Below are positions 12,946-47,369 of a stretch of DNA of 51,782 nucleotides, piece by piece (the stretch's first letter is position 1; each line of letters opens with the position of its first letter). Both the position numbers and the translations under genes were made by a program. The stretch is from assembly GCA_913060695.1 (NCBI GenBank), contig CAJXUA010000021.1, forward strand, positions 1 through 51,782, in the 5' to 3' direction. The notes under the pieces were generated by a model. It did no database searches. It had not been told where the DNA came from and saw only the letters and a program-made list of their open reading frames with translations. This DNA is from an uncultured Gammaproteobacteria bacterium. GTDB lineage: Bacteria > Pseudomonadota > Gammaproteobacteria > Pseudomonadales > Pseudohongiellaceae.

Positions 12946-13005
12946 TTATGGTGATATTAATTGAACTCACCAAGATTCAGCCTGCTCATTCATCGGAGCA
13001 TTACA

Positions 13006-29457: not shown

Positions 29458-30147
29458 ATGCGATTATTAGTGGTAGAGGACGAAATAAAGACCGCGGACT
29501 ACCTGCGCCAGGGCCTCACTGAGGCTGGTTTTCAGGTTAGCTTGGCCCGCAATGGTCTCGATGGTCATCATCTGGCCATGACCGAGAGCTTTGACCTCGT
29601 CATACTCGACGTCATGCTTCCCGATGTGGATGGCTGGCGTATCCTGCAGTCTTTGCGTGAGGCGAAGAATGCCACGCCTGTGCTTTTTCTTACGGCGCGC
29701 GACAGTGTCGATGATCGGGTTAAAGGTTTAGAGCTCGGTGCTGATGATTATCTCATCAAACCCTTCGCCTTCGTGGAGGTGCTGGCCCGAGTACGCAGTC
29801 TATTAAGACGCACGCAAGCACCTAGCACCCAAGAAGAGTTGCAGGTGGCCGATCTTGAGATCAACCTGCTCAAGCGCCGCGTCAGCAGAGCAGGCAAGCG
29901 CATCAACCTTAGTCACAAGGAATTTTGTCTGCTGGAATTGTTAATGCGGCACCAGGGTGAGGTGCTGCCGCGCTCGATAATCGCCTCGCAAGTGTGGGAC
30001 ATGATTTTCGACAGCGACACCAATGTCATCGATGTCGCCATCCGCCGCTTGCGCTCCAAGGTCGACGATGAGTTCGAACCGAAGCTCATTCATACCGTGC
30101 GCGGCATGGGTTACACGTTGGAGTGGGAGCAAGACCATGAATCCTAA
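29458..30147 (+). CDS. copR: Copper-responsive response regulator CopR/PcoR-type
   Basis: OmpR-family response regulator, 229 residues from ATG 29458 (GAGAGA just upstream; the ATG at 29410 would add 16 non-family residues). The receiver domain begins [20 protein letters not shown], with phosphoacceptor Asp in [16 protein letters not shown], Thr in VLFLTARD and Lys in [11 protein letters not shown]. The winged-helix domain ([33 protein letters not shown]...[15 protein letters not shown], ending [12 protein letters not shown]) binds DNA. It overlaps copS by 11 bp. Divergence from copAB and CopR-type sequence support control of the cop genes. Confidence 0.93.
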
Positions 30148-31531
30148 ACACATGCGTCCAATCTCTTTATCTCTGCGCGTAATGCTGTTTGTGATGCTCG
30201 CCATAGGGATGAGCCTTCTGTTGACTAGTCGATTGGTACTCAGCACGGTAGAGCATCATTTTATAGAGCAGGACGCGGATGAACTGCGCGTGATGGTGGG
30301 TGCCATAGAGCATGCCTTGACTCAAGAGAGCAGCGATTTGGTCGAGGCCCCCTCGAGCCTGTCATCGGCTATCTCTGGGCACCATGGTGTGTTCTATGAA
30401 ATCAAGGATGAGTCCGGGGCGGTGTTGTTTAGTTCTGCGGGTTTGGATTTTTCCGCTGCTGTCCCCAGCGTCTCGCCGGTTGTAGATGTCGATGCGACAA
30501 CAACCGAGCTCTGGACTATCGACAATAGGACCTATCGAGGCGTTGTTGTGCTCAGGTCAATCGATGCGAACCTCTACCAAATTACCAGCCTCATCGACAT
30601 GGAGTTTCACAGAAATTTTCTAAACTCATTTCAACGCAGTCTTTGGTTAATTCTACTAGGCGCCGGTGTGATTATCTTATTGGCCGCATGGATTGGCGTC
30701 TATCAAGGTCTGCGTCCCCTGCGCGGCATGAGTCACAGTGTGCGGACAATTCAGACCAATAAACTAGATACGCGCCTTGACCCTCTCACCGTGCCCATAG
30801 AGTTACAGAACCTTGTGCTGTCCTTTAATCAGATGATTGAACAACTAGAGGTGGGTTTCAGCAAACTCGCGCATTTCTCCGACGATATTGCCCACGAACT
30901 GCGCACGCCCTTGACGAATATGATTACCCAGACTCAAGTGAGTTTGTCCAAAGCCCGAAGCGATGCCGATTACCGTGAGCTGCTCTATTCAGTTTTGGAA
31001 GAGCAGGAGCGCTTGAACAAAATGGTGAACGACATGCTTTGGCTCGCCAAGAGCGAGAATGGCTTGCTAAAACTCAGCAGTACGCCAATCGATCTACAGG
31101 ACGAGTTCCAGGCACTTTTTGAGTTTTTCGATGCGTTTGCGGATGAGCGTGGCGTCTCACTAGCTGTCAATTCTAAGAGAGTGTTAGTGCAGGGCGATCG
31201 CGATTTGTTGCGCCGCGCTTTCACGAATATGCTTTCTAATGCAATCTACCATTCCCCGAATCAAGGTGTCGTGAATGTCACGTTGGCGCAGGATGGCGCA
31301 AACGCTTTGGTAACCATTGAGAACAATGGGCCCGAGATCGCTTCGATTCATCTAACCAGAATTTTTGATCGTTTCTACCGGATCGATCCGTCACGAGCGC
31401 GCAATAGTGAGGGGGCCGGGCTAGGGCTCGCAATCGTCAAGTCAGTTATCGAAGCCCACGAAGGCGAGGTCGAAGCACGCTCCAGTGCCATAAGCACTAA
31501 ATTCGTCGCACGCTTGCCGCTAAACTCCTAA
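30137..31531 (+). CDS. copS: Copper sensor histidine kinase CopS/PcoS-type
   Basis: Inner-membrane sensor kinase, 464 residues from ATG 30137, overlapping copR by 11 bp. The first membrane segment ([17 protein letters not shown]), a periplasmic sensor domain of about 150 residues and a second membrane segment ([24 protein letters not shown]) come first. A HAMP linker, the H-box with phosphorylated His in [16 protein letters not shown], the N-box ([13 protein letters not shown]) and [16 protein letters not shown] of the ATPase domain follow. The periplasmic domain is assumed to sense copper or silver by family (heavy-metal sensor kinase); no extra Met/His cluster stands out. Confidence 0.93.
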
Positions 31532-31712
31532 GGCCTTAGGCCGACGCTAGACCCACCACTGTGCCATGAATAGTCAGGGCTGCGCCCAGCGCCTGTTGGC
31601 GGACAATAGAGCTTTAAACTGAGACTCTCTACAAGCTGTAAAAATTGACATGAAAAATACCTATTGGACAATATAGTTCTGAAATAGACTGGCACATGGA
31701 GTATCACGGCAA

Positions 31713-31720
31713 GCAAATAG
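31713..31720 (+). repeat. 8-bp direct repeat GCAAATAG (left copy), target-site duplication
   Basis: Identical to the 8 bases at 40728-40735. IS66-family elements make 8-bp target duplications. The copy directly abuts the IS66-type end that starts at 31721. Confidence 0.85.
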
Positions 31721-31765
31721 GTAAGCGTCCGGCCATCACATCTTGATCTGAGGTGCGCCGGATTG
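31721..31765 (+). repeat. IS66-type terminal inverted repeat, left end of the chromate unit
   Basis: Read inwards from 31721, this 45-base stretch matches the complement of the IS66 right end at 40683-40727 at 38 of 45 positions, including 25 of the first 26. It begins GTAAGCGTCCGGCCATCA. No IS66 transposase gene follows it, so it is an orphan end. Confidence 0.85.
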
Positions 31766-31996
31766 TAACAGTACGGTCATAGCAACCTGTAAGCTGTTTA
31801 TGTGTGCCAATTAATGCGAAGAATCTTCGAGAGGCAGAGGATCTGCTATTACGCTTGGTTGTTGCCGATAGATACAGCCCCGTCATCCAAGTAGTGGGTC
31901 TGCGCGCCCAAAGTTTCAGTTGCGTCGCGTATTCATTTACCTATTCTTCCACACATATCTGAATGCGATAGTTTCGCACTCACGGCCCTGTGCGGA

Positions 31997-32018
31997 GGGT
32001 GGCGGATAACTGCCACCC
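31997..32018 (-). terminator. Weak hairpin downstream of chrA
   Basis: A 7-bp GC-rich stem (GGGTGGC / GCCACCC) with an 8-base loop lies about 20 bp after the chrA stop. There is no T-run on the minus strand, so it is only a possible terminator. Confidence 0.35.
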
Positions 32019-32038
32019 CTACCGAGGCCGCAATGACG

Positions 32039-33433
32039 TCATAAAGAATAGAAAGCCATCCCAACCAAAGCGCTAAGCCCGAGAACCTTTATCATCCCAA
32101 TCTTGAGGTAGAATACCGCCAGTAGCGCAGCGATAGTCATTAGTAAAGAGGGTATATCGATCGTGTTCAGCACAGGCACATCTACCGTCAACCCATAGGC
32201 ATAGATTTCACGCACTTCGAATAGCACGTGCATCGCGAACCAGAGTGCAAGATTAAGGATGACACCCGCCACTGCCGCCGTGATTGCCGCGAGGGCTGCT
32301 GAGAGTGCCTTATGGCCGCGTAAGGTTTCAATGAAGGGGGCGCCCAGAAAAATCCATAAGAAACAGGGCACAAATGTTACCCAGGTAGTAAGTACAGCGG
32401 CGAGTGTCGCAACTGTATAGGGGTTCATAGTCCCTGGATCCCGGAAAGCCGCCAAAAAACCGACAAACTGGACCACCTGAATCAGCGGTCCGGGGGTTGT
32501 TTCCGCCATGCCCAGACCGTCAAGCATCTCTTCTGGGGTCAGCCATCCAAAGTTTTCCACGGCCGCCTGGCTCACGTAAGCGAGAACAGCGTACGCGCCC
32601 CCAAAGGTCACCATCGCCATCTTGCTGAAGAATATGGCTATCTGGGAAAAGACATTTTCCATCCCCACCGTCTGGATTAATAACACAATCGGTCCGAACC
32701 ATAGAATCAGCAGAATCAGTGATATTCGGATGGACCAAGAGACGGTGGGTTTGGCATGCGCCGGTATGGTGGCGCCTAATGCTGAGTCCTCATCGGACAG
32801 ACCCTCTCCCTGCTTGCCATGGCTGGTATCAATGACAAAGGCAGGCATTCCGGTACGGCCACCGAAGTAACCTATTAGCGCTGCCGAGAGAATAATGAGT
32901 GGAAACGGTATGCCGAGGAAGAAAATAGCCACGAACGCGGCAGCTGCCAGACCCAGCATGACATTATTCTTCAGTGCACGGGAGCCGATTCGCACGACGG
33001 CCTGCAGTACAATGGCCAACACGGCGGTCTTGAGGCCAAAGAATAAGCCTTCAACTGCGCTGATGTTGCCATAGAGCACATAGATATAACTGAGCGCCAT
33101 AATTGAAAGGAATCCTGGCAGCACGAACAGAATGCCGGCAGCGAGCCCCCCTTTTGTCTTGTGCAGCAACCAGCCGATATATATCGCGAGCTGCTGCGCC
33201 TCTGGTCCCGGCAGGAGCATGCAGTAGTTCAGCGCATGCAGGAATCGGTTTTCGCCGATCCATTTTTTCTCCTCCACCAGAATCCGGTGCATCACGGCGA
33301 TCTGACCGGCGGGGCCGCCAAAGGACAGTGCAGCGACCCGCATCCAAACCCACAATGCTTCCGAAAAAGGTATGTTATGCCCGCCGGTTTCCGGAGCGTT
33401 ATCTTCGGCTTTCACGTTGCGAGTGTCCGTCAT
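32039..33433 (-). CDS. chrA: Chromate transporter ChrA (long-chain CHR family)
   Basis: The 464-residue inner-membrane protein exports chromate. It has two homologous CHR halves. The first starts FSEALWVWMRVAALSFGGPAGQIAVMHR and includes LPGPEAQQLAIYIGW. The second starts FFSKMAMVTFGGAYAVLAYVSQ with ETTPGPLIQVVQFVGF. About ten to twelve membrane segments are visible. The start overlaps the chrB stop as ATGA (33430-33433), so ChrA is translated with ChrB. A typical chromate operon; chrC and chrF are absent. Confidence 0.95.
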   Translation of the reverse strand: MTDTRNVKAEDNAPETGGHNIPFSEALWVWMRVAALSFGGPAGQIAVMHRILVEEKKWIGENRFLHALNYCMLLPGPEAQQLAIYIGWLLHKTKGGLAAGILFVLPGFLSIMALSYIYVLYGNISAVEGLFFGLKTAVLAIVLQAVVRIGSRALKNNVMLGLAAAAFVAIFFLGIPFPLIILSAALIGYFGGRTGMPAFVIDTSHGKQGEGLSDEDSALGATIPAHAKPTVSWSIRISLILLILWFGPIVLLIQTVGMENVFSQIAIFFSKMAMVTFGGAYAVLAYVSQAAVENFGWLTPEEMLDGLGMAETTPGPLIQVVQFVGFLAAFRDPGTMNPYTVATLAAVLTTWVTFVPCFLWIFLGAPFIETLRGHKALSAALAAITAAVAGVILNLALWFAMHVLFEVREIYAYGLTVDVPVLNTIDIPSLLMTIAALLAVFYLKIGMIKVLGLSALVGMAFYSL

Positions 33434-34425
33434 TGCAAACCCTTCCTTTTGAAATACCTATAGAGATCGGCGAACACGACTGAGCCCCGTCGAATACGCT
33501 CGTCGTCATCAGAAGTCGACAGGCAGATGCTGGTGATCAAGGTTCTTATGCCGGCGACTTCTTCTCGGGCGAACTTGCCGTCCTTAATGTCTATATCATG
33601 AACAATTTCAGCGATTTTCTGCAGGGCAGGCACCTCCAAGCCGGCTCGCAACAGGAGTACCTCAAATGTGCAGTTATCACCTTCATGAGTGAATTCGGCT
33701 TCAAACATATCGAATCGCAACTCGCCATCCTCAGGGATGTATCCTGTGGCCGCCACGAATTTGAGTTGCATCTCCGGATCGATAAAGCGTCGTATTAACC
33801 AAGCAGATGCAATTCGGTCTACATGTACGCCTTTGCGTGTCACCCAAACGCTACCTTGTGGAATGGCTGAAGACGCGGTTTTTTTAACCTCGTTATCTAC
33901 TTTCTCAGTGGCATTCTTGAGATTATCTTCGAGAGCCGAAAGCAACCCCTCGGCCGCTTCACGGCCATTTGCCCCAAAGAAGTCGATTGCCTCAATTTCT
34001 ATTAGTTTCTTGCGAAGGCGAACAATTTGATTGCGCACATCCCCCGTTTCCTGCTCTTTATCGTTCTTGATTGCTTCGTCAAGCGCGCGAGCCTCTGTTG
34101 CCACAGCGTCGTAGTCCGCATCTCTGGCCTGATCAAACAGTTGACGAACCTGGGCATCAGTCAAACCATCCACAAACTGCGTTTCACAAATCAGGCCTTC
34201 ACCGCTGCCTTCCTCGATCTCGCGCAGTAACCACTCATAGTCCTCCAAAGACTCTTCGTTCGCGGGCAGGGCATAGACGGAGCTTTTGACAGCAATCGCA
34301 CCTATGCCCTGCAGTCTTCGCCAGATTTTGACCCTCAAATAAGCCGGTTTCGAAGGTAGCTGGAATATCAATAAAAGCCATTTTTCACGGCTGGCCGCCT
34401 GATTTTCGGGGATTTTTTCGCTCAT
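33430..34425 (-). CDS. chrB: Chromate resistance regulator ChrB
   Basis: The 331-residue cytosolic protein has the N-terminal ChrB domain (KWLLLIFQLPSKPAYLRVKIWRRLQGIGAIAVKSSVYALP, about residues 15-150) and the C-terminal ChrB domain. The latter starts at WVTRKGVHVDRIASAWLIRRFIDPEMQLKFV (about 190) and includes FEAEFTHEGDNCTFEVL. ChrB proteins act as chromate-sensing regulators of chr operons in other bacteria. It overlaps chrA by four bases and is divergent from the DUF1259 gene (102-bp gap), where its operator would be expected. Confidence 0.92.
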   Translation of the reverse strand: MSEKIPENQAASREKWLLLIFQLPSKPAYLRVKIWRRLQGIGAIAVKSSVYALPANEESLEDYEWLLREIEEGSGEGLICETQFVDGLTDAQVRQLFDQARDADYDAVATEARALDEAIKNDKEQETGDVRNQIVRLRKKLIEIEAIDFFGANGREAAEGLLSALEDNLKNATEKVDNEVKKTASSAIPQGSVWVTRKGVHVDRIASAWLIRRFIDPEMQLKFVAATGYIPEDGELRFDMFEAEFTHEGDNCTFEVLLLRAGLEVPALQKIAEIVHDIDIKDGKFAREEVAGIRTLITSICLSTSDDDERIRRGSVVFADLYRYFKRKGLQ

Positions 34426-34527
34426 ATGTAGAATGTATCTTCAGTCATGGCCGTAAGCAACACTTGTATCATCGAAATGATGAGTTTATCCTCCAAGATC
34501 TCATAAGCATATGTAAGGAGCAATCCA

Positions 34528-35409
34528 ATGCGAACGCTATGCACTACAGCTCTCATTTCAGTTCTAGGACTTGCCACCAATCCTGCAAGCGCACAGGTTG
34601 ACTGGCCTGAGGTGGGCGAAATCTTGGCTCGGCCTGTGAGCGGCCAGGCTGGGGAAGTCCACCGTTTCGGTTTCCCACGCACGGATCTCGAGGTGGTTTT
34701 AGACGGCACTAATGTCATGCCGGGACTCGCACTGGGCACATGGCTCGCTTTCCACCCCACCGATGATGATCAGGTCATGGTGATGGGAGATCTTGTTCTG
34801 CTTGAGGAGGAGGTAAACCCTGTGATGAAGCGGCTCGCCGAAGGGGGGGTGGAAGTGACAGCTATCCATAACCATTTGCTGCGCGCCCAGCCATTCCCGA
34901 TGTACATGCATGTGGAGGCACATGGTGATCCCATAGAACTGGCCAAAACCTTCAGGGATGCCATTGCCCTTAGTGAAACGCCCATGAACAGTCCTACAGC
35001 AAACAGCGCAGAGCAAGGCCTGGATTTCAACAGCGAAATCATCGCACAGGTGCTGGAGCATGAAGGAAGTGCCGACGGCGGTGTTTATAAAGTCAGCATT
35101 CCCCGTGCAGCGCCTATCAGTGAGGATGGCATGGCCCTGCCCGCAGGAATGGGTGCTGAGATTGCTATAAATTTCCAGTCTGCCGGCGGCGACGAGGCTG
35201 CAACTACCGGCGACTTTGTTCTGACAGCGGACGAAGTCAATCCAGTTCTGCGAGCTTTGCGTGACAACGATATCGAGGTTACCGCGCTGCATAATCACAT
35301 GCTTGAGGAGGAACCCCGGCTGTTTTTTATGCATTTCTGGGGAGTGGGCGCACCGGAAGCGCTGGCAAGGGGGCTTAAGTCGGCCCTAGACCTGGTGAAT
35401 GTGCAGTAG
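34528..35409 (+). CDS. Secreted DUF1259 (LppY/LpqO-type) protein with duplicated domain
   Basis: The 293-residue protein has a signal peptide (MRTLCTTALISVLGLATNPASA|QVDW) and two similar DUF1259 halves. Both contain the pattern LxxxEVNPVxxxLxxxxxEVTAxHNHxL (EEEVNPVMKRLAEGG...TAIHNHLL in the first, TADEVNPVLRALRDN...TALHNHML in the second). An aromatic/His strand follows each: MYMHVEAHGDP and FFMHFWGVGAP. AAGGAG is 8 bp upstream of the ATG. It is divergent from chrB in the same mobile unit. The HNH-type residues could bind metal; function is unproven. Confidence 0.85.
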   Translation: MRTLCTTALISVLGLATNPASAQVDWPEVGEILARPVSGQAGEVHRFGFPRTDLEVVLDGTNVMPGLALGTWLAFHPTDDDQVMVMGDLVLLEEEVNPVMKRLAEGGVEVTAIHNHLLRAQPFPMYMHVEAHGDPIELAKTFRDAIALSETPMNSPTANSAEQGLDFNSEIIAQVLEHEGSADGGVYKVSIPRAAPISEDGMALPAGMGAEIAINFQSAGGDEAATTGDFVLTADEVNPVLRALRDNDIEVTALHNHMLEEEPRLFFMHFWGVGAPEALARGLKSALDLVNVQ

Positions 35410-35851
35410 CATGTGAAGATAAATGCTTGCATGCGGAGACGATCCCGAAGACCCAGTACAGCCCGAGATTCTACCATTGCCCTGTAGCTTTAGTGATCTG
35501 CCTCCTGTTTTCCACGGGGGTTGTTGCGACCGAAGAGATTCAAGGCGGAGTGCAATATGCGACGGATCTGCGCATCGACCTTTCGTCAAACAGCCGCCGC
35601 CCGGACCTTTAACTTCCAACTCCCAGCTATGGGGCGTGATACGAATGATCATTTGGCCGAAACGCAGTCTTCGATATATGGTATCGATGCCGAGAAGACA
35701 TGAAGAGAAATCTGACCTCCTGCGTGGAGCGTCGTGACCGCAATGTTCAGGCAAAAATCAGTATGGCGTATTAGGGGTCGTGTGCCAATAATATCTATGA
35801 TTCAATCTGGAAAAGTCTTACTTTAAACCTAACTCGTTACGAGGATTATGC
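35410..35851. other. 442-bp region with a possible gene remnant
   Basis: A TTG-started frame at 35427 encodes a plausible signal peptide (PVALVICLLFSTGVVA) followed by TEEIQGGVQYATDLRIDLSS, then stops at 35612. Frames continue on the same strand as NFQLPAMGRDTNDHLAETQS up to 35703. This looks like a frameshifted start of a secreted or outer-membrane protein, but no family is recognised. The rest is the leader of the quinoprotein gene. Confidence 0.35.
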
Positions 35852-38044
35852 ATGTTTAGATTATCAGCAGCGCTGCTTGTCAGCCTTATCGCGGTCAGCT
35901 CGGCTCAGGGACAGGATGGGAACGTCGAGCGTGGCCAAACAATATTCGAGTCGGAATGTTCCAGGTGCCATGTTCCCGCCGAGATGGATGGCCGGCTTCG
36001 AGCACGCTGGATAGGTCGTACGGGTGACGAGTTGTTCAATCAAATCCGAACGACCATGCCAGCAGAGACCCCGGGCTCATTGACCAATACTCAGTATCTT
36101 GATCTGACCGCATTTATTCTCCAGTCGGGCAATATCCAGATCCCTAATGGCCAGATTTCGGCCAATGCTCTAGCGGAACTTCGAATTAACCCTGGAGCGG
36201 CTGAGGTGGCTCAAACTGGCAGCCAGCCGTGGACTCATTACAATGGTGATGAACGCTCAATTCGCTACTCTCCGCTGGACCAGATTAACTCTTCCAATGT
36301 AGACTCATTGAAGATCGCGTGGACATTTGACACCGGTCCCTTCGGCCCACGGCCAGAGACAGTTAGTGTCACGACGCCGCTGATGGTTAATGGGACGCTT
36401 TACGCGACGGCAGGCGCAACTCGAAATGTGGTTGCGTTGGATGCAGGTTCCGGGCAAATCAAATGGACGTGGAATCCGCAGGAAGGACAACGCTTTGAAG
36501 ATGCTCCTCGCAAAGGGTCTGGCAAAGGTCTGACCTATTACAATAATAATGGCCAAGAAATTATTTTTACTATTACACCAGGGTATTTTCTTGTTGCTTT
36601 GGACGCTCAGACGGGCCGCCCAATAGAATCGTTCGGCTCCGATGGGTGGGTGGATTTGCAGCAGGGCCTGCGTCTTGGCCCAGGTCGTGACGATATAGAT
36701 ATCGGTATGTCCTTTATGCCACTGGCAATAGATGGGGTTGTGATCACTGGCGCAGCACATCTTGTGGGCATGCGCCCAATTGCCCGCGAGAACGTAAAGG
36801 GAGATATCCGTGGATTTGATGTCTCGACCGGGGAGCTTTTGTGGACATTCAAAACCATTCCCGAGCCTGGCGATATTGGCTATGAGTCCTGGATTTCCGG
36901 TGCAGATTTTACAGGTAACGCCGGAGTGTGGGCGCCCATGTCTGCCGATAAAGAGCTGGGGCTGGTCTACTTGCCCGTAGAATCTGCAACGGGCGATCGA
37001 TATGGCGGAGACCGGCCTGGCAATAATCTTTTCTCCAGCTCGACGGTCGCAGTAGATTACAAGACGGGCGAAATGAAGTGGTACTTCCAAACTACCCATC
37101 ACGACATCTGGGACTGGGATACGCCTTCGGCGCCACTGCTGGTCGATTTGCCGGATGGCACTCGCGCGGCAATCCAGACGCTAAAACAATCGCACCTGTT
37201 CATGTTCGATCGAAAAACCGGTGAGCCACTGTTTCCTGTCGAAGAGCGCCCAGTACCACAAACTGATGTGCCAGGCGAGTGGACCGCCGCAACACAGCCA
37301 TTCCCCTTACTTCCTGCTCCTTACGACCGTCAGGGCTTTCAAGAAGACGACCTTGTCGATTTCACCCCAGAGATACACGCGAAAGCGATGGAGATAGCGT
37401 CTGATTATCGAATGAGCGAGTCTCCATTCACGCCGCCCTCTGTTTTTAAAGGGCCAGATGGCACGCTTGGAACCTTGCTCCTGCCCTCTGCTACCGGGGG
37501 ATCGAATTGGGAGGGCGCTGCCTATGACCCAGATACGGGCATAATCTATGTTCCATCCAGAACGGCAACAAGCGTGATGGCACTGGTCAACGATCCTGCA
37601 GCCTCCAGCGTGGCGTATATCCATGGTGGTGGCACGCCCCCCAACGTCGAAGGAATCCCACTGGTGAAACCACCTTATGGGCGGATCACTGCAATTAATA
37701 TGGTCACGGGTGAACATGTTTGGCAGGTTGCGAATGGCGACACGCCAGATGAAATCGCAAATCATCCCTTGCTTCAAGGCATCGACATTGGACGTACCGG
37801 CAAACCCACCCGGTCAGGTCTGGTGTTGACCAAATCACTCTTGTTTGCCGGCGAAGGTGTAGGCGGGAGCCCGGTCCTTTGGGCGTTGGACAAAACTACG
37901 GGGTCTATTGTAGCCGAAATAGAAATGCCCGGCACCGTAACAGGTGTCCCTATGACGTACATGCACAATGGCAAGCAGTATCTGGTGATGGCTATTAGCA
38001 CGCCCGGCAGCTCATCCAGAATTGTTGCCTTAACTCTTGAATGA
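35852..38044 (+). CDS. PQQ-dependent (quinoprotein) dehydrogenase with N-terminal cytochrome c domain
   Basis: The 730-residue periplasmic oxidoreductase has a signal peptide (MFRLSAALLVSLIAVSSAQG|QDG) and an N-terminal cytochrome c domain with heme motif CSRCH (about residues 37-41). An eight-bladed quinoprotein propeller (about 120-725) follows. Propeller hallmarks include WTHYNGDERSIRYSPLDQIN, TTPLMVNGTLYATAGATRNVVALDAGSGQIKW, DRYGGDRPGNNLFSSSTVAVD, HHDIWDWDTPSAPLLVD and GGSNWEGAAYDP. The N-terminal heme domain differs from quinohemoprotein alcohol dehydrogenases, where it is C-terminal. Substrate unknown; no PQQ synthesis genes are in the window, so PQQ must come from elsewhere in the cell or medium. 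Confidence 0.9.
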   Translation: MFRLSAALLVSLIAVSSAQGQDGNVERGQTIFESECSRCHVPAEMDGRLRARWIGRTGDELFNQIRTTMPAETPGSLTNTQYLDLTAFILQSGNIQIPNGQISANALAELRINPGAAEVAQTGSQPWTHYNGDERSIRYSPLDQINSSNVDSLKIAWTFDTGPFGPRPETVSVTTPLMVNGTLYATAGATRNVVALDAGSGQIKWTWNPQEGQRFEDAPRKGSGKGLTYYNNNGQEIIFTITPGYFLVALDAQTGRPIESFGSDGWVDLQQGLRLGPGRDDIDIGMSFMPLAIDGVVITGAAHLVGMRPIARENVKGDIRGFDVSTGELLWTFKTIPEPGDIGYESWISGADFTGNAGVWAPMSADKELGLVYLPVESATGDRYGGDRPGNNLFSSSTVAVDYKTGEMKWYFQTTHHDIWDWDTPSAPLLVDLPDGTRAAIQTLKQSHLFMFDRKTGEPLFPVEERPVPQTDVPGEWTAATQPFPLLPAPYDRQGFQEDDLVDFTPEIHAKAMEIASDYRMSESPFTPPSVFKGPDGTLGTLLLPSATGGSNWEGAAYDPDTGIIYVPSRTATSVMALVNDPAASSVAYIHGGGTPPNVEGIPLVKPPYGRITAINMVTGEHVWQVANGDTPDEIANHPLLQGIDIGRTGKPTRSGLVLTKSLLFAGEGVGGSPVLWALDKTTGSIVAEIEMPGTVTGVPMTYMHNGKQYLVMAISTPGSSSRIVALTLE

Positions 38045-38240
38045 AAATCTCGTAAGGGTATTTATTTCCGGGGAATTGATATGGTAAGCAGGCAGGGTCG
38101 GAAGCGGTTAGGGTGTAGCTATGCGGACCTTCAACCAGATAAAGGATGTCTCCACGACCAACAATGAGCTTGTCAAGCACTTCCCTGGGCAACTCAATAC
38201 CCAACGAGCTACCGACGTGTGTCAATTTGACCTTAATCAT
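37995..38240 (-). pseudogene. AbrB/MazE-type antitoxin, 3'-truncated
   Basis: From ATG 38240 the first ~50 residues are a canonical AbrB/MazE swapped-hairpin domain (MIKVKLTHVGSSLGIELPRE, VLDKLIVGRGDILYLVEGPHSYTLTASDP). After ASDP the sequence (ACLPYQFPGNKYPYEIF...) no longer resembles an antitoxin and runs antisense into the 3' end of the quinoprotein gene, so the original C-terminus is lost at about 38085. No toxin gene follows. The inner IS66 end starts 13 bp upstream of the ATG, so its promoter is probably gone too. Confidence 0.75.
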
Positions 38241-38268
38241 GGAGTCCGTTTTCGTAACACTCCGGCCA

Positions 38269-39852
38269 TCAAAATTTAACAGCGGCTTCCGGCTGCCAGT
38301 TGTGTGGCAGTAGTTCACTAATGGCACTGGCCTTGTGTGTTGGCAGCCTGGCCAATACATCTTTGAGATAGGCGTACGGATCTTGCCCATTCAGTCTGGC
38401 TGATTGTATCAGGCTCATCACCGCAGCGGCGCGTCGCCCACTGCGAAGCGAGCCGGCAAACAGCCAGTTGCTGCGACCCAGCGCCCAGGGGCGGATCTGG
38501 TTCTCAACCTGATTGTTGTCAATGGGCACGGCCCCATCATCCAGATAACGGGTCAGCGCGCTCCAGCGTTTTAAACTGTAATCGATAGCTTTGGCTGTAG
38601 CAGTGCCGTCGGGCACTTTCTGCCGGTGGGCGATCAGCCAAGTGTGCAAGTCATCGGCCAGGGGTTTGCCTTTTTGTTGCCGTAGCAAGTGTCGCTGCTG
38701 CGGATCCAGGGCCTTGGCTTGGCGCTCGATCTCATAGAGCCTGCCGATCTGCTCCAGCGCTGTGGCTGCTAATGTACTTTTATTCGTTTCGTGCAGCTCA
38801 AAGAACTTGCGACGGGCATGGGCCATACAACCGATCTCGGTGATGCCCTGGCCAAAGCTGGCTTTGTAACCACTGTAGTCGTCGCAGATCAGTTTTCCTT
38901 GCCAGCCATCCAGGAAACGCCGGGCATGTTCACCGCCGCGTCCGGGCGCAAAGTCATAGACCACCGCTTTGGTATCAGCATAAGGGGTGGTGCAGTAGGC
39001 CCAGATGTACGCGCGGTGGGTCTTTTTCTTGCCCGGCTCCAGCATCGGCACCGGTGTTTCATCGGCGTGTACCACCGAGTGACTCAGGATGGTGTCTCGC
39101 AGTGCATCAGCCAACGGTTGTAAGGCCTGGCCGCAGCGGCCGACCCAGTCAGCCAATGTGGAACGAGCCAACGGGTAACCGGCCCGACCAAAGATCTGCT
39201 CCTGGCGGTACAGCGGCAGATGATCGGCGTACTTGGCTACCAGTACATGAGCCAGCAGGCCAGTGGTGGGCAGGCCTTTGTCGATCACATGCACCGGTAC
39301 CGCCGCCTGGGTCAGTGTTTCACACTCGGTGCACACCCACTTGCCACGGATGTGCTGCTCAACACTGAACACGCCCGGGGTGTAGTCCAGTTTCTCGCTG
39401 ACGTCTTCACCGATGCGCTTTAACTGGCAGCCGCACTGGCATTGGGTGTTGTCCGGTTCATGCCGTATCTTTGTACGAGGCAGCTCCGCCGGCAATGCCA
39501 CACGCTTGGGCTGCGCTTTGGGTTTGTTGCTGATGGGTTCATCTTCTATCTGATCAGCCCACTCCTGCTCGATGGCACTGGTATCGGCATCGATGATGTC
39601 TTCTAACAGGCTTTGCTGCAGAGGGCTGAGCTTCTCGCTGTGTTTGCCGAACTTCAAACGACGCAGCAGCAACAACTCGTGCGAGAGCTTGGCGTTGACC
39701 GCTTCCAGGTGTCGGTTGCGCTGCTCGGCGGTCACAGTGCGCTGCTGAAATGTCTGCAACTGCTGCTTCTGGTCCGCCGCACTGCCCATCAGTTGGGCAA
39801 CCAGGTTGCGCAGCTGTTCGGCATCGAGTTTGTTCAGATCAACTTGAGTCAT
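38269..39852 (-). CDS. tnpC: IS66-family transposase TnpC (DDE)
   Basis: The main transposase of the element has 527 residues from ATG 39852 (546 from 39909). It has the IS66 helix-turn-helix and leucine-rich N-terminus and the zinc-finger-like segment QCQCGCQLKRIGEDVSEKLDYTPGVF with WVCTECET. The DDE domain includes VVHADETPVPMLEPGKKKTHRAYIW (first Asp), LICDDYSGYKASF (second Asp) and VENQIRPWALGRSNWLFAGS (Glu). The IS66_C tail is LNGQDPYAYLKDVLARLP. It looks intact, so the element may be active. Confidence 0.94.
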   Translation of the reverse strand: MTQVDLNKLDAEQLRNLVAQLMGSAADQKQQLQTFQQRTVTAEQRNRHLEAVNAKLSHELLLLRRLKFGKHSEKLSPLQQSLLEDIIDADTSAIEQEWADQIEDEPISNKPKAQPKRVALPAELPRTKIRHEPDNTQCQCGCQLKRIGEDVSEKLDYTPGVFSVEQHIRGKWVCTECETLTQAAVPVHVIDKGLPTTGLLAHVLVAKYADHLPLYRQEQIFGRAGYPLARSTLADWVGRCGQALQPLADALRDTILSHSVVHADETPVPMLEPGKKKTHRAYIWAYCTTPYADTKAVVYDFAPGRGGEHARRFLDGWQGKLICDDYSGYKASFGQGITEIGCMAHARRKFFELHETNKSTLAATALEQIGRLYEIERQAKALDPQQRHLLRQQKGKPLADDLHTWLIAHRQKVPDGTATAKAIDYSLKRWSALTRYLDDGAVPIDNNQVENQIRPWALGRSNWLFAGSLRSGRRAAAVMSLIQSARLNGQDPYAYLKDVLARLPTHKASAISELLPHNWQPEAAVKF

Positions 39853-39937
39853 GCCGTCAGTATGCCACTGACCCGCGCTGACTTCGATACGCTTAATGGG
39901 TGATAGCATTTACCGCAAGGTTATGATTCGATACAAC

Positions 39938-40273
39938 TTACAGGAGACTGATGACGCCTGCTTCACCGACTCGCTGCCAGGGCAGACCCTGAACCAGCGC
40001 ACTGAGCTGCTCATCGCTGAGCGTCAGTTGCGGGGCGCGCCAGGATTCAGCCCAGTGAAACTTGCCGCGGTTGAGCCTGCGGGCACACAGCCAGATGCCA
40101 AGACCATCGTGGATCAACACCTTCATCCGGTTGGCGCGTTTGTTAGCGAAAAGATACGCACAATGCGGCCGGGCACTGCCAAACACCTGCACCACCCGGG
40201 CCAGCGCCGTGTCCGACCCGGCGCGCATATCCAGCGGCTCGGTGGCCAGCCAGATCTGATCGATGCGGATCAC
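39938..40273 (-). CDS. tnpB: IS66 accessory protein TnpB
   Basis: The 111-residue protein carries the IS66 Orf2 signature: LATEPLDMRAGSDTALARVVQVFG, HCAYLFANKRANRMKVLIHDGLGIWLCARRLNRGKF. It begins with GTG, overlapping the tnpA stop by one base (TAGTG), so it is translationally coupled. It is required with TnpA and TnpC for transposition of IS66-type elements; the biochemical role is not well known. Confidence 0.93.
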   Translation of the reverse strand: MIRIDQIWLATEPLDMRAGSDTALARVVQVFGSARPHCAYLFANKRANRMKVLIHDGLGIWLCARRLNRGKFHWAESWRAPQLTLSDEQLSALVQGLPWQRVGEAGVISLL

Positions 40274-40647
40274 TACAGAAGTTCTCGCAGCAGCGCCAGG
40301 CAGCGATCAGTTTGTGACACCGGGCAACTGATGTTGATGCTTTGCTGGCGATACGGGATTTCCACACGGATCGCCTCAGTATCAGCAGCGCGCTTTACTG
40401 GCGGCGCCGGTTGCACAGGGGCATTGGCATTTATCGGCAAAGCGACAAAGCCAGGTGCCTTGTGAGTACTTTTGCTCTGCGCCAGACGTATCCATTTACG
40501 CAGCATATTGGCGTTGAGTCCGTGCTCCAGCGCGATGCGGGCCACCGAGGCGCCAGGTTGCGCACAGGCGGTAATCACGTTGTGTTTAAAGGCCTTGGTG
40601 TAACGTTTGCGCTTCGGCGCCGGATTGACTACGCTTATTTCGTTCAT
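40273..40647 (-). CDS. tnpA: IS66 accessory protein TnpA
   Basis: The 124-residue protein has a helix-turn-helix of the IS66 Orf1/IS3-OrfA type (KRYTKAFKHNVITACAQPGASVARIALEHGLNANMLRKWIRLAQ, residues 13-55) and a C-terminal tail ending in CPVSQTDRCLALLRELL. It is the first gene of the element, starting about 80 bp inside the right terminal repeat. Intact. Confidence 0.92.
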   Translation of the reverse strand: MNEISVVNPAPKRKRYTKAFKHNVITACAQPGASVARIALEHGLNANMLRKWIRLAQSKSTHKAPGFVALPINANAPVQPAPPVKRAADTEAIRVEIPYRQQSINISCPVSQTDRCLALLRELL

Positions 40648-40727
40648 GATAGGTGTCCGCTTAAAAATAGGTGGACACTATCGAATCAGGAGCACATCGG
40701 TTCAAGATGTGATGGCCGGACGGTTAC

Positions 40728-40735
40728 GCAAATAG
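40728..40735 (+). repeat. 8-bp direct repeat GCAAATAG (right copy), target-site duplication
   Basis: Identical to 31713-31720 and directly abutting the right IS66 end at 40727. Confidence 0.85.
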
Positions 40736-40936
40736 CTGGAAAATAAAGATTTAAAATGAACATATAGTTAACAGTCCATCGGAAATTTTAGATTTAATCA
40801 ACAATCCTTTAATCTCACTCCCCTGAACTTTGTAACTTTTTGAACGCGCCGACGTATGAGGCTGCACTGTAGGTTATACAAGTGGAAGTTCACTCTCATC
40901 GAGGAAGTGGTACTAAGGCGGGGGAAAGGCCAGGGG

Positions 40937-41029
40937 TTCTACAATCCTCGACGCAATCATGGTGCAAACAACGGACTGTCTCCTGAAGAGATGGAAAAGC
41001 AGAATTTTAGGGAACTACCAGGTGTCTAA
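40937..41029 (+). pseudogene. IS3-family transposase C-terminal fragment
   Basis: A 30-codon piece ending in a stop reads FYNPRRNHGANNGLSPEEME and then KQNFRELPGV. This is the C-terminus of IS3-family (IS51-like) OrfB transposases, where a similar RRxHGxNNGLSPxExE end precedes the terminal repeat. The preceding 200 bp carry no continuous frame, so only a remnant remains. It lies downstream of merA and marks an older insertion next to the mer operon. Confidence 0.65.
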
Positions 41030-41081
41030 AAAACTGGGGCCTTACCACTCAACAGGTTCACTCGAAATGACTGACTTTGGT

Positions 41082-42743
<1,662 letters not shown>

Positions 42744-42768
42744 TCAATGTATATGCGTACTCTCGCAG

Positions 42769-42978
42769 TTAATCCGCTGGCCTTTTCCGGTATAATGCAT
42801 ACACGCATAGCCCGACAAAGAAAAACAAAGATGGCAATAGGACAAAGTCTAAATATCCAGTTAAAGCTGAAAGCCCTAACACTGACAGCAGGATGACCAG
42901 TACCGGTGTAAAGCAGCACAATGCGATTATTACAGTGCCGACGACACCCAGTCGCAATAGCTTCTTCTTACTATCCAT
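42769..42978 (-). CDS. merF: Mercury transporter MerF
   Basis: This small inner-membrane protein imports Hg(II) for reduction. The 69 residues have two membrane helices: VVGTVIIALCCFTPVLVILLSVLG with the Cys-Cys pair, and FVLLPSLFFFVGLCVYALY. The CCFTPVLVILL...LGLSALTGYLDFVLLP core is the MerF signature. Start 42978 lies six bases after the merP stop. Confidence 0.93.
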   Translation of the reverse strand: MDSKKKLLRLGVVGTVIIALCCFTPVLVILLSVLGLSALTGYLDFVLLPSLFFFVGLCVYALYRKRPAD

Positions 42979-42984
42979 TGTCGA

Positions 42985-43266
42985 TTACTCCACAATTTTA
43001 ATTGTGGATTTGAATCCAGCATTTGTTGTTGCGTGCACGAGCGCTAGCGCATCGGTCTTGGCGTCATCGAAGGTCACTACCGCACTCTTACTCTCCAAGC
43101 TCACGTCAGCCTCTATGACTCCGTCTACTTTATTCAATGCCATCTTCACAGTAACTGGGCACATCGCGCAGTCCATAGTAGGCAAATCTAGGGTAATGGT
43201 CTGTGGACTAGCCCAAACAATCGGGCTCATAATTGTCAGCAAAGTAGCAAATATAAATTTCTTCAT
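42985..43266 (-). CDS. merP: Periplasmic mercury-binding protein MerP
   Basis: MerP captures Hg(II) in the periplasm and hands it to MerT. The 93-residue protein has a signal peptide (MKKFIFATLLTIMSPIVWA|SPQT) and one heavy-metal domain with MDCAMC (both Cys retained). ALNKVDGVIEADVSLESKSAVVTFDD and TTNAGFKSTIK follow. Located between merT and merF. Confidence 0.95.
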   Translation of the reverse strand: MKKFIFATLLTIMSPIVWASPQTITLDLPTMDCAMCPVTVKMALNKVDGVIEADVSLESKSAVVTFDDAKTDALALVHATTNAGFKSTIKIVE

Positions 43267-43288
43267 CGAAATCTCCTCGTTGTAAAAT

Positions 43289-43672
43289 TTAAAGTAAAAA
43301 TAAGGGTAACCAATACGCGCTCGTCACCAGACAGAGCGCTATCGCCGAAACAAACCAGAACAAAACTTGACGACGGATTCGAGTTTGAGGGACTGCACAT
43401 ACAGATCCCGGTTCACATGATTCGATGGGCTTATACACTTTAAATCCAGCCCAGACGAGCATGCCGAGTACAAACACAATGAACAACGGTTGGTAGCGCT
43501 GAAAAGCCATTAGGTTGCTAATCCAAGATCCGCTGACCCCCATAAGCAGAAGTACGAAAGGCCCTATGCAACAGATACTACCGCCGACGGCTGCAAGAAT
43601 GCTGGCAGTCAGCGGTAGTTTAGTGCTTTGTGATGTTTTCTCGTTCATGGCTTTAAACAACTCCGTTTTCAT
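43289..43672 (-). CDS. merT: Mercuric ion transporter MerT
   Basis: Inner-membrane importer of Hg(II), 127 residues from 43672; ATG 43648 would give 119 and is also possible. The first helix has the Cys pair (AAVGGSICCIGPFVLLLMGVSGSW). FQRYQPLFIVFVLGMLVWAGFKVYKPIESCEPGSVCAVPQ carries the second cytosolic Cys pair, and the last helix is FWFVSAIALCLVTSAYWLPL. First structural gene after the mer promoter, co-directional with merR. Confidence 0.94.
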   Translation of the reverse strand: MKTELFKAMNEKTSQSTKLPLTASILAAVGGSICCIGPFVLLLMGVSGSWISNLMAFQRYQPLFIVFVLGMLVWAGFKVYKPIESCEPGSVCAVPQTRIRRQVLFWFVSAIALCLVTSAYWLPLFLL

Positions 43673-43683
43673 CTTAAGAGAAG

Positions 43684-43715
43684 ACTCTAGACTCCGTACC
43701 GAGGTACAGAGTCAA
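43684..43715 (-). promoter_or_regulatory. mer promoter/operator
   Basis: On the minus strand TTGACT (43710-43715) and TAGAGT (43684-43689) are 20 bp apart; a 19-bp spacing gives CTAGAG. The spacer carries the dyad ACTCCGTACC and GGTACAGAGT around GA, including GTAC-N4-GTAC (43696-43707) found in classical mer operators. It precedes merT. Unlike Tn501, merR lies upstream in the same direction, so merR needs its own promoter. Confidence 0.85.
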
Positions 43716-43734
43716 GCGCGAAATGAAAAATACT

Positions 43735-44142
43735 TTAAGAGTTTGGTAGCAATGCTTCCACGATCGGGCAACAAGCGCGCTCGGGATTACTTTGGCATTG
43801 AATAGTCAAATCCTCTAAAGTACTTTTTAAATTCTCTAGATCCGCAATTTTCAAACGAATAGTATTGAGCTTACTCTCGGCAATTTCCTGAATGCCTTCG
43901 CAGTGCGAATCCCCAAGTTGCAAAAGATTCTCTATTTCACTTAAGCTGAAGCCTAACTCCTTTGCTCTCTTGATAAACTGTAGCCGTTGAACAGTTTTAG
44001 TTGGATACACTCTATAGCCTTGCTTTGGCTTCTCAGGCTGCGCTATTAGGCCAAGCCTTTCGTAATAGCGAATCGTTTCGATATTCAAGGAGAGAGTTTT
44101 TGCCACACGACCAATCGTAGATGGAAGACTCATAAAGCGCAC
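43735..44142 (-). CDS. merR: Mercury-responsive regulator MerR
   Basis: Activator-repressor of merTPFA. The 135 residues have the MerR helix-turn-helix (IGRVAKTLSLNIETIRYYERLGLI). A long dimerisation helix (SKLNTIRLKIADLENLKSTLEDL) and the three Hg-binding cysteines follow: DSHCEGI, then IQC and the second Cys of ACCPIVEAL nine residues later, the Tn501 MerR spacing. It is co-directional with merT, with the operator in the 62-bp gap. Starts at 44142 or at the Met four codons in. Confidence 0.94.
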   Translation of the reverse strand: MRFMSLPSTIGRVAKTLSLNIETIRYYERLGLIAQPEKPKQGYRVYPTKTVQRLQFIKRAKELGFSLSEIENLLQLGDSHCEGIQEIAESKLNTIRLKIADLENLKSTLEDLTIQCQSNPERACCPIVEALLPNS

Positions 44143-44239
44143 TCACGTTAGTCCGAGTAGATCATTCATGATTAGCCAAACTGCAGATCGTGTACTTAGT
44201 CTATTCGATCTCTCGATGCAGGCTTGCTGATTGGACAGG

Positions 44240-44620
44240 CTAGGATTGGCATATCTTTGCTTGCCGCTTGTTCGCGAGAAAGCTAAGAACAGTCGAGATC
44301 AGTAGTCCGAATATACCGATATACATGAGCATCAATTGCCACCCCACATAAAAACCGTACAGAACAAGCAGCGCCGACCCGACCCCTAGAATCGTCGGCA
44401 TTAATTTCCTATGATTTCTATAGCTGAGCAACGTACCCACTAACGCTACGACTACAAATGGGGGGAAAACGTAGTCCATCATTATCCCCTCCCAAGGAGC
44501 CAGCACCCCTAAGCCTAATGCACTCCCCAACCCAGCGAATAAGGGCCAGCATACGGGACACGCCAACGCGGTAAGCAACATCCCCATGGAGCCTATTTTG
44601 TCTACAAATGTTAGCTTCAA
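44240..44620 (-). CDS. merC: MerC-family mercury transporter
   Basis: Four-helix inner-membrane protein, 126 residues. It has DKIGSMGMLLTALACPVCWPLFAGLGSALGLGVLAPWEG, the MerC signature with the CPVC pair in the first helix. Further helices are FPPFVVVALVGTLLSY, ILGVGSALLVLYGFYVGW and YIGIFGLLISTVLSFLA. TTG 44620 is preferred as start because AGGAG lies about 8 bp upstream; a GTG at 44635 overlaps that site. It is not part of merTPFA: it is divergent from a second MerR-type gene and has its own 19-bp-spacer promoter. Confidence 0.85.
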   Translation of the reverse strand: MKLTFVDKIGSMGMLLTALACPVCWPLFAGLGSALGLGVLAPWEGIMMDYVFPPFVVVALVGTLLSYRNHRKLMPTILGVGSALLVLYGFYVGWQLMLMYIGIFGLLISTVLSFLANKRQAKICQS

Positions 44621-44684
44621 TTCACAGCTCCTCACTCAACAATGTTTTAGTGTTCCATGCAGAGTTATTCGACCCTGTGCTAGC

Positions 44685-44715
44685 ATTATGCTACCTGTAG
44701 TTACTACAGGTGCAA
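44685..44715 (-). promoter_or_regulatory. MerR-type promoter/operator of the merC-like gene
   Basis: On the minus strand TTGCAC (44710-44715) and CATAAT (44685-44690) are exactly 19 bp apart. The spacer region holds a perfect dyad ACCTGTAG-TTA-CTACAGGT (44693-44711). It lies between the divergent merC-like gene and the MerR-type gene at 44744, so that protein is the likely regulator of both. Confidence 0.85.
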
Positions 44716-44743
44716 TAGCAACTGCTAATGTAAGGGAGAAAGA

Positions 44744-45148
44744 ATGAAAACAATGACCATTGGCGGGCTTTCCGAACGGACAGGCGTCCACATTGAGACC
44801 ATCCGGTTCTACGAAAAGAAAGAAATACTGCCAAATGCTGTTCGAAATAGGGGTGGTAGGCGGATATATGATGAATCCGACGTGAAACGACTCAATTTCG
44901 TGAATAAATGTCGTGGATTCGGGTTTTCACTGGCGGAAATCATGAGTCTACTCAGCCTCGTTGACACGAAAGAGTACACCTGTAGGCAGGTTCATGACTT
45001 AACGCTAGAGCACGCCAAGGAGGTGAATCGGAAAATCGTGAGCCTCAAACAAATGGAGCTCGTTCTATTGAATATGGCCGATCAATGCGGCCTCGGAAAT
45101 ATCCCGGAGTGCCCAATAATCGATAGCCTTTTCTCGACTAAGCTTTAA
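44744..45148 (+). CDS. Second MerR-family mercury-type regulator
   Basis: The 134-residue protein has the helix-turn-helix MTIGGLSERTGVHIETIRFYEKKEIL, RRIYDESDVKRLNFVNKCRGFGFSLAEI, and three Cys in MerR-like positions. These are EYTCRQVHD, DQC and PECPIIDSL, with eight residues between the last two, one fewer than in the MerR at 43735. Inducer probably Hg(II) or another thiophilic metal. Divergent from the merC-like gene across a shared operator. Confidence 0.88.
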   Translation: MKTMTIGGLSERTGVHIETIRFYEKKEILPNAVRNRGGRRIYDESDVKRLNFVNKCRGFGFSLAEIMSLLSLVDTKEYTCRQVHDLTLEHAKEVNRKIVSLKQMELVLLNMADQCGLGNIPECPIIDSLFSTKL

Positions 45149-45489
45149 ACATAATTCAAAATTAGGAGTCCTGCATGTTGCCTACAAACTAAGTTCTTCC
45201 CTTGCCATTTGGACGCTAATGCAAGTCCTTAGAAAGAACATAAGTTACCCAACAGCTCTCTTACAAGCTCAACCTGCCTCGTTCACATAACGTCAACTTC
45301 TTGTAAGAGTTAGGTACAAATACGCAGCCAGCGACGATATAGGGGGGCTAGCCCTGAGTTTCCGCATCTTTTTAGGAGAGCTAGCGAGGGGATGTTACTA
45401 ATCTGTTCAAACGCGTTGATATGGTGTAATCTAATTAACGGCTGAACTAACAGTTTTAATTGTGAAAACCCCAAAGTTTGCAAAAGTAA
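45149..45489. other. 341-bp leader region upstream of the cus operon
   Basis: No gene was found. A perfect 10-bp inverted pair lies 32 bp apart: CTCTTACAAG (45258-45267) and CTTGTAAGAG (45300-45309). A single TGTAATC (near 45430), like the half-sites proposed for CopR at 29381, lies upstream of the cus genes. The promoter of the cus operon should be here, but I cannot place it with confidence. Confidence 0.45.
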
Positions 45490-45987
45490 ATGACGAATAA
45501 AAGAATCCTTAGCGGACTACAAAAATGGATCGTTTTACTATCCTTTTTTGGCGTGTTGTTTAACGTCCAGGCCAGCTATGCGTGCGTGATGATGACGGAC
45601 ATGGATAGCAAGCAGAATGAATGCTGCTGCGGTTCGGTTCATCGTATGCAAGACGGAAAAGTTTCGAATCAAGAAGATAGTAAAAGTAACGGTGTTAACG
45701 AAGATCCTGATTGTGGTGACACCCTAAGAAATTGCTGCAAGGTCGAGGTCTCCCTAGATCTGGATGATGGGGCAGGCAATGAGCCTATCGTTAGCAATAG
45801 CACGATAATAAAGCTCCAGCTTTCCATAGTTAAAATCTTTGACGATCCTACGCTGTTCTGGGATCTCGCCCTCAGTAACGATATTGTTGTTCGCAACAAA
45901 TTCTATTACATCGATATTCCTTCCGATCCGGCAGTCCTTGTCGCGAATTCTCCGTTGTATCTGAAAACGGCACGTTTTCGGATTTAA
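45490..45987 (+). CDS. Secreted Cys-rich protein of unknown function at the head of the cus operon
   Basis: No family recognised. The 165-residue protein has a signal peptide (KWIVLLSFFGVLFNVQASYA|CVMM). The mature N-terminus is Cys-rich (CVMMTDMDSKQNECCCGSVH, then DCGDTLRNCCKVEV), with about nine Cys in 60 residues. A hydrophobic/beta-rich C-terminus follows. If the Cys after the signal (SYAC) were a lipobox, it could be a lipoprotein; SYAC fits poorly. It is 78 bp upstream of the TolC-like gene on the same strand. Thiol-based metal binding is inferred only from composition. Confidence 0.68.
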   Translation: MTNKRILSGLQKWIVLLSFFGVLFNVQASYACVMMTDMDSKQNECCCGSVHRMQDGKVSNQEDSKSNGVNEDPDCGDTLRNCCKVEVSLDLDDGAGNEPIVSNSTIIKLQLSIVKIFDDPTLFWDLALSNDIVVRNKFYYIDIPSDPAVLVANSPLYLKTARFRI

Positions 45988-46065
45988 ACCTCCCGCAAAT
46001 TAGTTCCACTTAGTGCGCTTTGCCTCGTTGGGTAATGGCGCCTGTTTACTAATGGGAGTATTGCT

Positions 46066-47367: not shown

Positions 47368-47369
47368 CA

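Follow-up and report, generated by a model that had tools for sequence, protein, structure and literature searches.

The window analysed here, a stretch of 51,782 nucleotides from an uncultured gammaproteobacterium of the Pseudohongiellaceae, raises the question of how a block of chromate-type genes and a quinoprotein gene came to lie beside an IS66 element within a metal-resistance region, and whether it arrived there as one piece. The initial annotation had answered that the block is a single unit mobilised by IS66, and we examined this proposal through the ends of the segment, its relatives in other genomes, and the traces of its assembly.

Boundaries and contents of the segment

The segment spans 31721-40727 (9007 bp) and carries IS66-type ends with exact 8-bp flanks, GCAAATAG, on both sides, the left target-site duplication (31713-31720) agreeing with the right one (40728-40735) in 8/8 positions, just as the initial annotation had stated. 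The outer left transposon end (31721-31765, plus strand) starts with GTAAGCGTCCGG, or in a longer reading with GTAAGCGTCCGGCCATCACATCTTGA, and has 0/25 mismatches to the IS66 end consensus used for all mismatch counts (GTAANCGTCCGGCCATCACAYCTTG, 25 positions). It matches the complement of the right end, which starts from 40727 with GTAACCGTCCGGCCATCACATCTTGA, at 38/45 positions, the same figure as given earlier, and BLAST aligns it to the 2474-bp IS with E = 6e-11. The outer right end (40703-40727, minus strand), which is common to the unit and to the complete IS66, also has 0/25 mismatches to the consensus.

The complete IS66 occupies 38254-40727 and encodes, all on the minus strand, the IS66 DDE transposase gene tnpC (38269-39909; PF03050, E=9.5e-110; NF033517 above cut-off), tnpB (39938-40273; PF05717 and NF033819 above cut-off), and tnpA (40273-40647; NF047595 above cut-off). 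It had been noted that this element lacks a matching flank of its own on the left and that its inner left end pairs worse with the right end, and both observations hold, given that the left flank reads CCGTTTTC and that the inner end agrees with the right end at 16/18 of the first positions and 22/45 overall.

The cargo consists of chrA, a chromate efflux transporter gene (32039-33433, minus strand; PF02417, E=3.4e-70; TIGR00937 above cut-off), chrB, which is chromate-resistance regulator-like (33430-34425, minus strand; PF09828 and PF20229 above cut-off), a gene for a DUF1259 protein (34528-35409, plus strand; PF07485, E=7.7e-88), and a gene for a PQQ-type quinoprotein with an N-terminal cytochrome c-like domain (35852-38044, plus strand; PF01011, E=7e-172, above cut-off; PF13442 just under cut-off), for which no NCBIfam model reached its cut-off. 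Beside the inner IS66 end there is also a MazE/doc-partner-like antitoxin fragment (37995-38240, minus strand), matched by TIGR02609 over residues 5-49 below cut-off (E=4e-8) and weakly by PF04014. By their family matches, the ChrA transporter and ChrB make up a chrBA operon, and membership in these families suggests that the cargo would provide chromate efflux or resistance. Between the window and G034, one of the genomes that carry a further copy (see below), dN/dS is 0.05-0.17 for the cargo genes and 0.06 for tnpC, and as judged from this comparison the cargo is under purifying selection. In G001 (C19, 4678-9322), chrA (46% protein identity), chrB (30%), and the quinoprotein gene (74%) stand together in the same order, on a 14-kb stretch where neither the DUF1259 gene nor tnpABC has a tblastn match at 1e-8; from this co-location, ChrBA and the cargo quinoprotein may be functionally linked.

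The empty site and further copies

The search for an empty site covered 14 genomes of the genus, and an exact one, as the initial annotation had proposed to look for, was found in G011, on whose contig 67 the left flank of the window up to 31720 meets the right flank from 40728 with an 8-base overlap, that is, through a single GCAAATAG. The left flank there (29868-31720) is identical to the window at 1853/1853 positions, and the right flank (40728-50858) has 2 mismatches in 10131; extending it to 51780 gives 11054 aligned columns with 15 mismatches and a single gap. G011 has nothing that matches the unit's left end, and its only cargo matches are a 69% quinoprotein relative on another contig and a short 66% match. 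Among 137 family genomes, G011 was, besides the window, the sole near-identical match to the left flank of the window, with G002 and a second place in G000 matching at 77%. The pattern that would have spoken against a mobile unit, namely these genes always forming part of a longer conserved island without empty sites, was not seen.

A 320-bp query with the left end matched seven of the same 137 family genomes, at full length in G000, G039, and G034, over the first 88 bp in G044, and over 25-44 bp in G006, G032, and G035. G039 contains the full unit (C10:57016-66022) with the same 9007 bp and with 62 mismatches and no indel relative to the window, and G034 contains it (C9:7124-15998) as 8875 bp that are 5-6% different, with a 138-bp gap and a 6-bp insertion. 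These copies lie at two other loci in Pseudohongiella, and each has its own flanks, TGTTCGAC in G039 and GAATGTTG in G034, both duplicated at 8/8 positions, so that the suggested check for copies elsewhere with 8-bp flanks of their own came out in favour of the proposal. In G039 the target was an IS3-type transposase gene, which the copy splits, and G076 contains an uninterrupted relative of this target gene, to which the two G039 flanks, aligned separately, correspond at 1477-2275 (69.6%) and 2268-2396 (73.8%) of the extracted locus, the two alignments overlapping by 8 positions; unlike the near-identical empty site of G011, the G076 site is thus an uninterrupted relative. The left tnpC scrap described below, the junction between the antitoxin fragment and the inner end, and the divergent inner end are common to all three copies. 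Given the two further full copies with their own, different, exact 8-bp duplications, together with the unit-free site in G011, the structure goes beyond chance. We infer the movement itself from the sequences, which show that one pre-assembled unit was inserted on three separate occasions, each insertion extending between the outer left and the shared right end and bearing an 8-bp duplication. On the same sequence evidence the unit moved whole, and the G011 empty site and the two other loci with duplications of their own support the claim of a single IS66-mobilised unit.

Wider scans complete this picture. An exact pattern scan for the left end in genome contigs returned three contigs, those of G034, G039, and G044. 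The G044 locus (C51, 1-945) matches the initial 88 bp of the unit at 100%, with another flank, TGGCAACG, and then continues as transposase-like sequence until the contig stops; no chr cargo was found between the 88-bp match and that point. G035 has a contig-cut IS66 at 93%, with no chr match. In a 390-genome sample of the order, an exact match to the 17-bp end pattern is present in 30 genomes, and only G000 and G034 have a facing pair of such ends on one contig at a distance of 3-25 kb, the chromate unit in both cases, a count which is a lower bound given the strict pattern and the fragmented contigs. The unit was not found at near identity among 72,556 plasmid records, in which ten records matched, all at 60-80%, seven over the IS66 tnpC and three over chrA, none of them covering 80% of the query; the left-end pattern scan of viral contigs gave 0 matches.

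Relics in the segment and the probable origin of the unit

The most likely reading, with a probability of roughly 0.87, is that these 9007 bp make up an IS66 transposon with passenger genes, which arose as a composite of two IS66 relatives and has since been reduced. TnpA, TnpB, and TnpC of the complete IS66 would use 31721, the outer left end, and 40727, the shared right end, as their substrates and would insert the whole segment with duplication of 8 bp of the target, the moving presumably having been done by the unit's own transposase. Its origin would lie in two same-orientation IS66 relatives flanking the chrBA-DUF1259-quinoprotein genes. Of the left relative, decay has probably spared only the outer end and a tnpC scrap, and the right one has probably diverged at its inner left end, a change which may favour whole-unit movement.

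The decayed fragment of a second tnpC (31856-31916, minus strand) lies around the YLDDGAV..NNQ motif and is identical to 38510-38571 in 46/62 aligned columns with one gap (E = 4e-6), its translation reading THYLDDGAVSIGNNQ against TRYLDDGAVPIDNNQ in the intact tnpC. A separate local alignment to tnpC of the stretch beyond position 60 scored 73, the best of 200 shuffled versions reaching 52. This alignment and the translation indicate that part of a second IS66 relative sits between the outer left end and chrA. The scrap is 135 bp from the outer end, and the corresponding distance in the intact element is 256 bp, which means that the left remnant has lost sequence; what is left of the presumed left IS copy is the end and the 61-bp tnpC scrap, which may be the trace of the second IS copy that defines a composite transposon. 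The left remnant may itself be chimeric, since its terminal 45 bp are closer to the right end (38/45) than to the inner left end (22/45), and the scrap beside them is the 3' part of tnpC. These same two figures favour a different reading, which we find possible but doubtful, namely that the outer left end descends not from a full second IS66 but from a copied and displaced IS66 right end, or from a small non-autonomous derivative, which came to lie beside an older tnpC fragment; the orientation of the adjoining scrap, which is that expected for the left part of an IS66, argues against it, and the unit would move alike in either case.

Turning to the right copy of the proposed composite, its inner left end (38254-38278, plus strand) has 6/25 mismatches to the consensus, including positions 6-7, with 6 mismatches also in G039 and 7 in G034, and the window, G034, and G044 all match the consensus without mismatch at the outer left end. 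The left ends of eight other IS66-type elements have 0 mismatches of 25 in seven cases and 1 in the remaining one, a set that is biased because at least five of the loci (two in G427, two in G314, and one in G267) entered it by matching the unit's own left end; apart from this left end, the two G427 loci have no DNA match to the window. Elements found through the transposase body or the tnpC scrap have left ends with 0 mismatches (G044, G006, and G032) or 4 (the second IS66 of G034, and G416), and among IS66 ends flanked by duplications there are 5/25 mismatches in the G267 right end, 4 in the left ends of the second G034 IS66 and of G416, and 3 in the G006 right end. Among all ends seen, the inner one thus diverges most, though not by far, and its distinctive trait is the change at positions 6-7, where the other duplication-flanked ends compared have kept CG. 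Since up to 5/25 mismatches occur in the ends of IS66 elements that are mobile elsewhere, inactivity of the inner left end is only suggested. More tentatively still, and with the odds rather against it, the unit could be a fossil intermediate in which two IS66 copies trapped a cargo and the inner ends were then lost, one deleted and the other altered at positions 6-7 and beyond, so that the transposase became committed to the cargo, a co-mobilised chromate module in which the DUF1259 protein and the cytochrome-quinoprotein would act together with ChrBA.

It is very unlikely that a plain IS66 was first inserted at GCAAATAG and that the cargo entered later by homologous recombination or a second insertion. 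Sequence exchange among IS66 copies is indeed suggested by a patch of tnpC, 38321-39520, in which 44/62 of the differences between the window and G039 fall and which likely reflects local exchange with another IS66 copy, and cargo-free IS66 copies with 8-bp duplications do exist; but the same scrap, inner junction, and divergent inner end are present at three loci with three duplications, and the window copy has flanks that hardly differ from the G011 empty site, so the decay on the left side is older than the insertion in the window. Such stepwise filling of a resident IS66 was rejected, the same relics being found at three loci. Just as improbable is that G011 represents a product of precise excision or deletion instead of the original empty site: a deletion between the 8-bp repeats would, from general knowledge, yield an identical sequence, but G076 shows a relative of the G039 site in uninterrupted form too, and each of the three full copies lies between 8-bp duplications. 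Finally, true one-ended transposition, with the transposase using the right end alone and stopping on the left by chance, would account for the complete IS66 having no left duplication of its own, but we give it practically no credence and reject it: in place of the variable other boundary that marks this process, 3/3 full copies have one fixed left boundary, the first base of a full IS66-type end, and carry exact 8-bp duplications. Nor is the outer left end an orphan, as the initial annotation had imagined, both termini being full IS66 ends and the left one being followed by a decayed tnpC fragment of a second IS66.

Relation to other IS66 elements and to the host island

Ordinary IS66 elements in G006, G267, G416, G044, and G034 resemble the unit in their IS66 transposase genes, GTAA-type ends, and 8-bp duplications, but carry nothing of the chromate cargo in the interval from tnpC to the left end. 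Their own duplications are found on single contigs in G006 (GTTTGATC), G267 (AGCTAAAT), and G416 (AATCAATC), and with the flanks on different contigs in G044 (GAAGTAAC) and for the second G034 element (GAAACGAC and TTTTGATG). The closest to the IS66 of the unit is the G044 element, at 94% over 1580 bp and with a perfect left end. The second G034 IS66 is about 80% identical to that of the unit and has at least two insertions, on contigs 20, 14, 13, and 34; its ends begin with GTAAGCGTTCGCTCATC and GTATCCGTCC, one right end having GTAT in contrast to the GTAA-type ends elsewhere.

Passenger-carrying IS66 elements, or tIS66, are already in print, for example ISPa75 with fosZ downstream of tnpC, and 7/25 of the Pseudomonas IS66 members of ISfinder are counted as having passengers (PMC12888890), so such elements are less rare than the initial annotation supposed. 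On sequence grounds the unit belongs to this kind: it has IS66-type inverted ends at both outer boundaries, an 8-bp target duplication there in 3/3 full copies, the tnpA, tnpB, and tnpC genes, each passing at least one curated cut-off, and passengers inside the ends and downstream of tnpC (chrBA, DUF1259, and quinoprotein; 31721-38253). ISPa75-fosZ is alike in having tnpA, tnpB, and tnpC with a passenger that follows tnpC, termini similar to different IS66 elements and inferred in that paper to derive from two of them, and target duplications at several sites, but it is 2996 bp long with one passenger, as opposed to 9007 bp and four complete cargo genes, and it is the unit that has the recognisable divergent inner end and the scrap of a second tnpC (PMC12888890). 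Composite transposons and single-IS transposable modules are known for other IS families (PMC3281130). Like a composite transposon, the unit has IS66-type sequence at both outer ends with cargo between them and moves as one with a target duplication, but it has one complete IS copy only, the left copy being an end and about 200 bp. Like the TMos of Paracoccus, which belong to the IS1380 family, it would rely on one complete IS copy to mobilise adjacent DNA, but TMos are described as a single IS copy with adjacent fragments of various lengths, in contrast to the same IS66-type left boundary in three full copies of the unit (PMC3281130).

Among the papers found by searching, no title or opening abstract described a chromate-carrying IS66 unit. 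What is new is the 6.5-kb chrBA-DUF1259-quinoprotein cargo and, set against ISPa75, the relics. The unit offers a clean natural experiment, with one 9-kb metal-resistance transposon at three sites and a near-identical empty site, its relics suggest a route from an ordinary IS66 to a cargo carrier, and the locus illustrates the entry of a chromate module into a copper/mercury island that two species already had in common.

In the window, the insertion point lies between a CusS-type sensor gene, which ends at 31531, and a mercuric reductase gene (41082-42734), and the metal-resistance stretch around it (29868-31720 and 40728-50858) is near-unchanged in the other species, G011. Since the collection holds one genome per species, the island is present in two species of the genus, and the unit in only one of these genomes. 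An ORF at 12961-14289, between housekeeping-like and metal genes, has a start that resembles that of a tyrosine integrase, and may mark the entry point of the island. A run of 26 bases at the very start of the window's contig (20-45) recurs unchanged at the start of the G011 contig (1-26); in G011 it includes GATGTGTATAAGAGACAG, presumably a sequencing adapter, and this identity is probably an assembly artefact.
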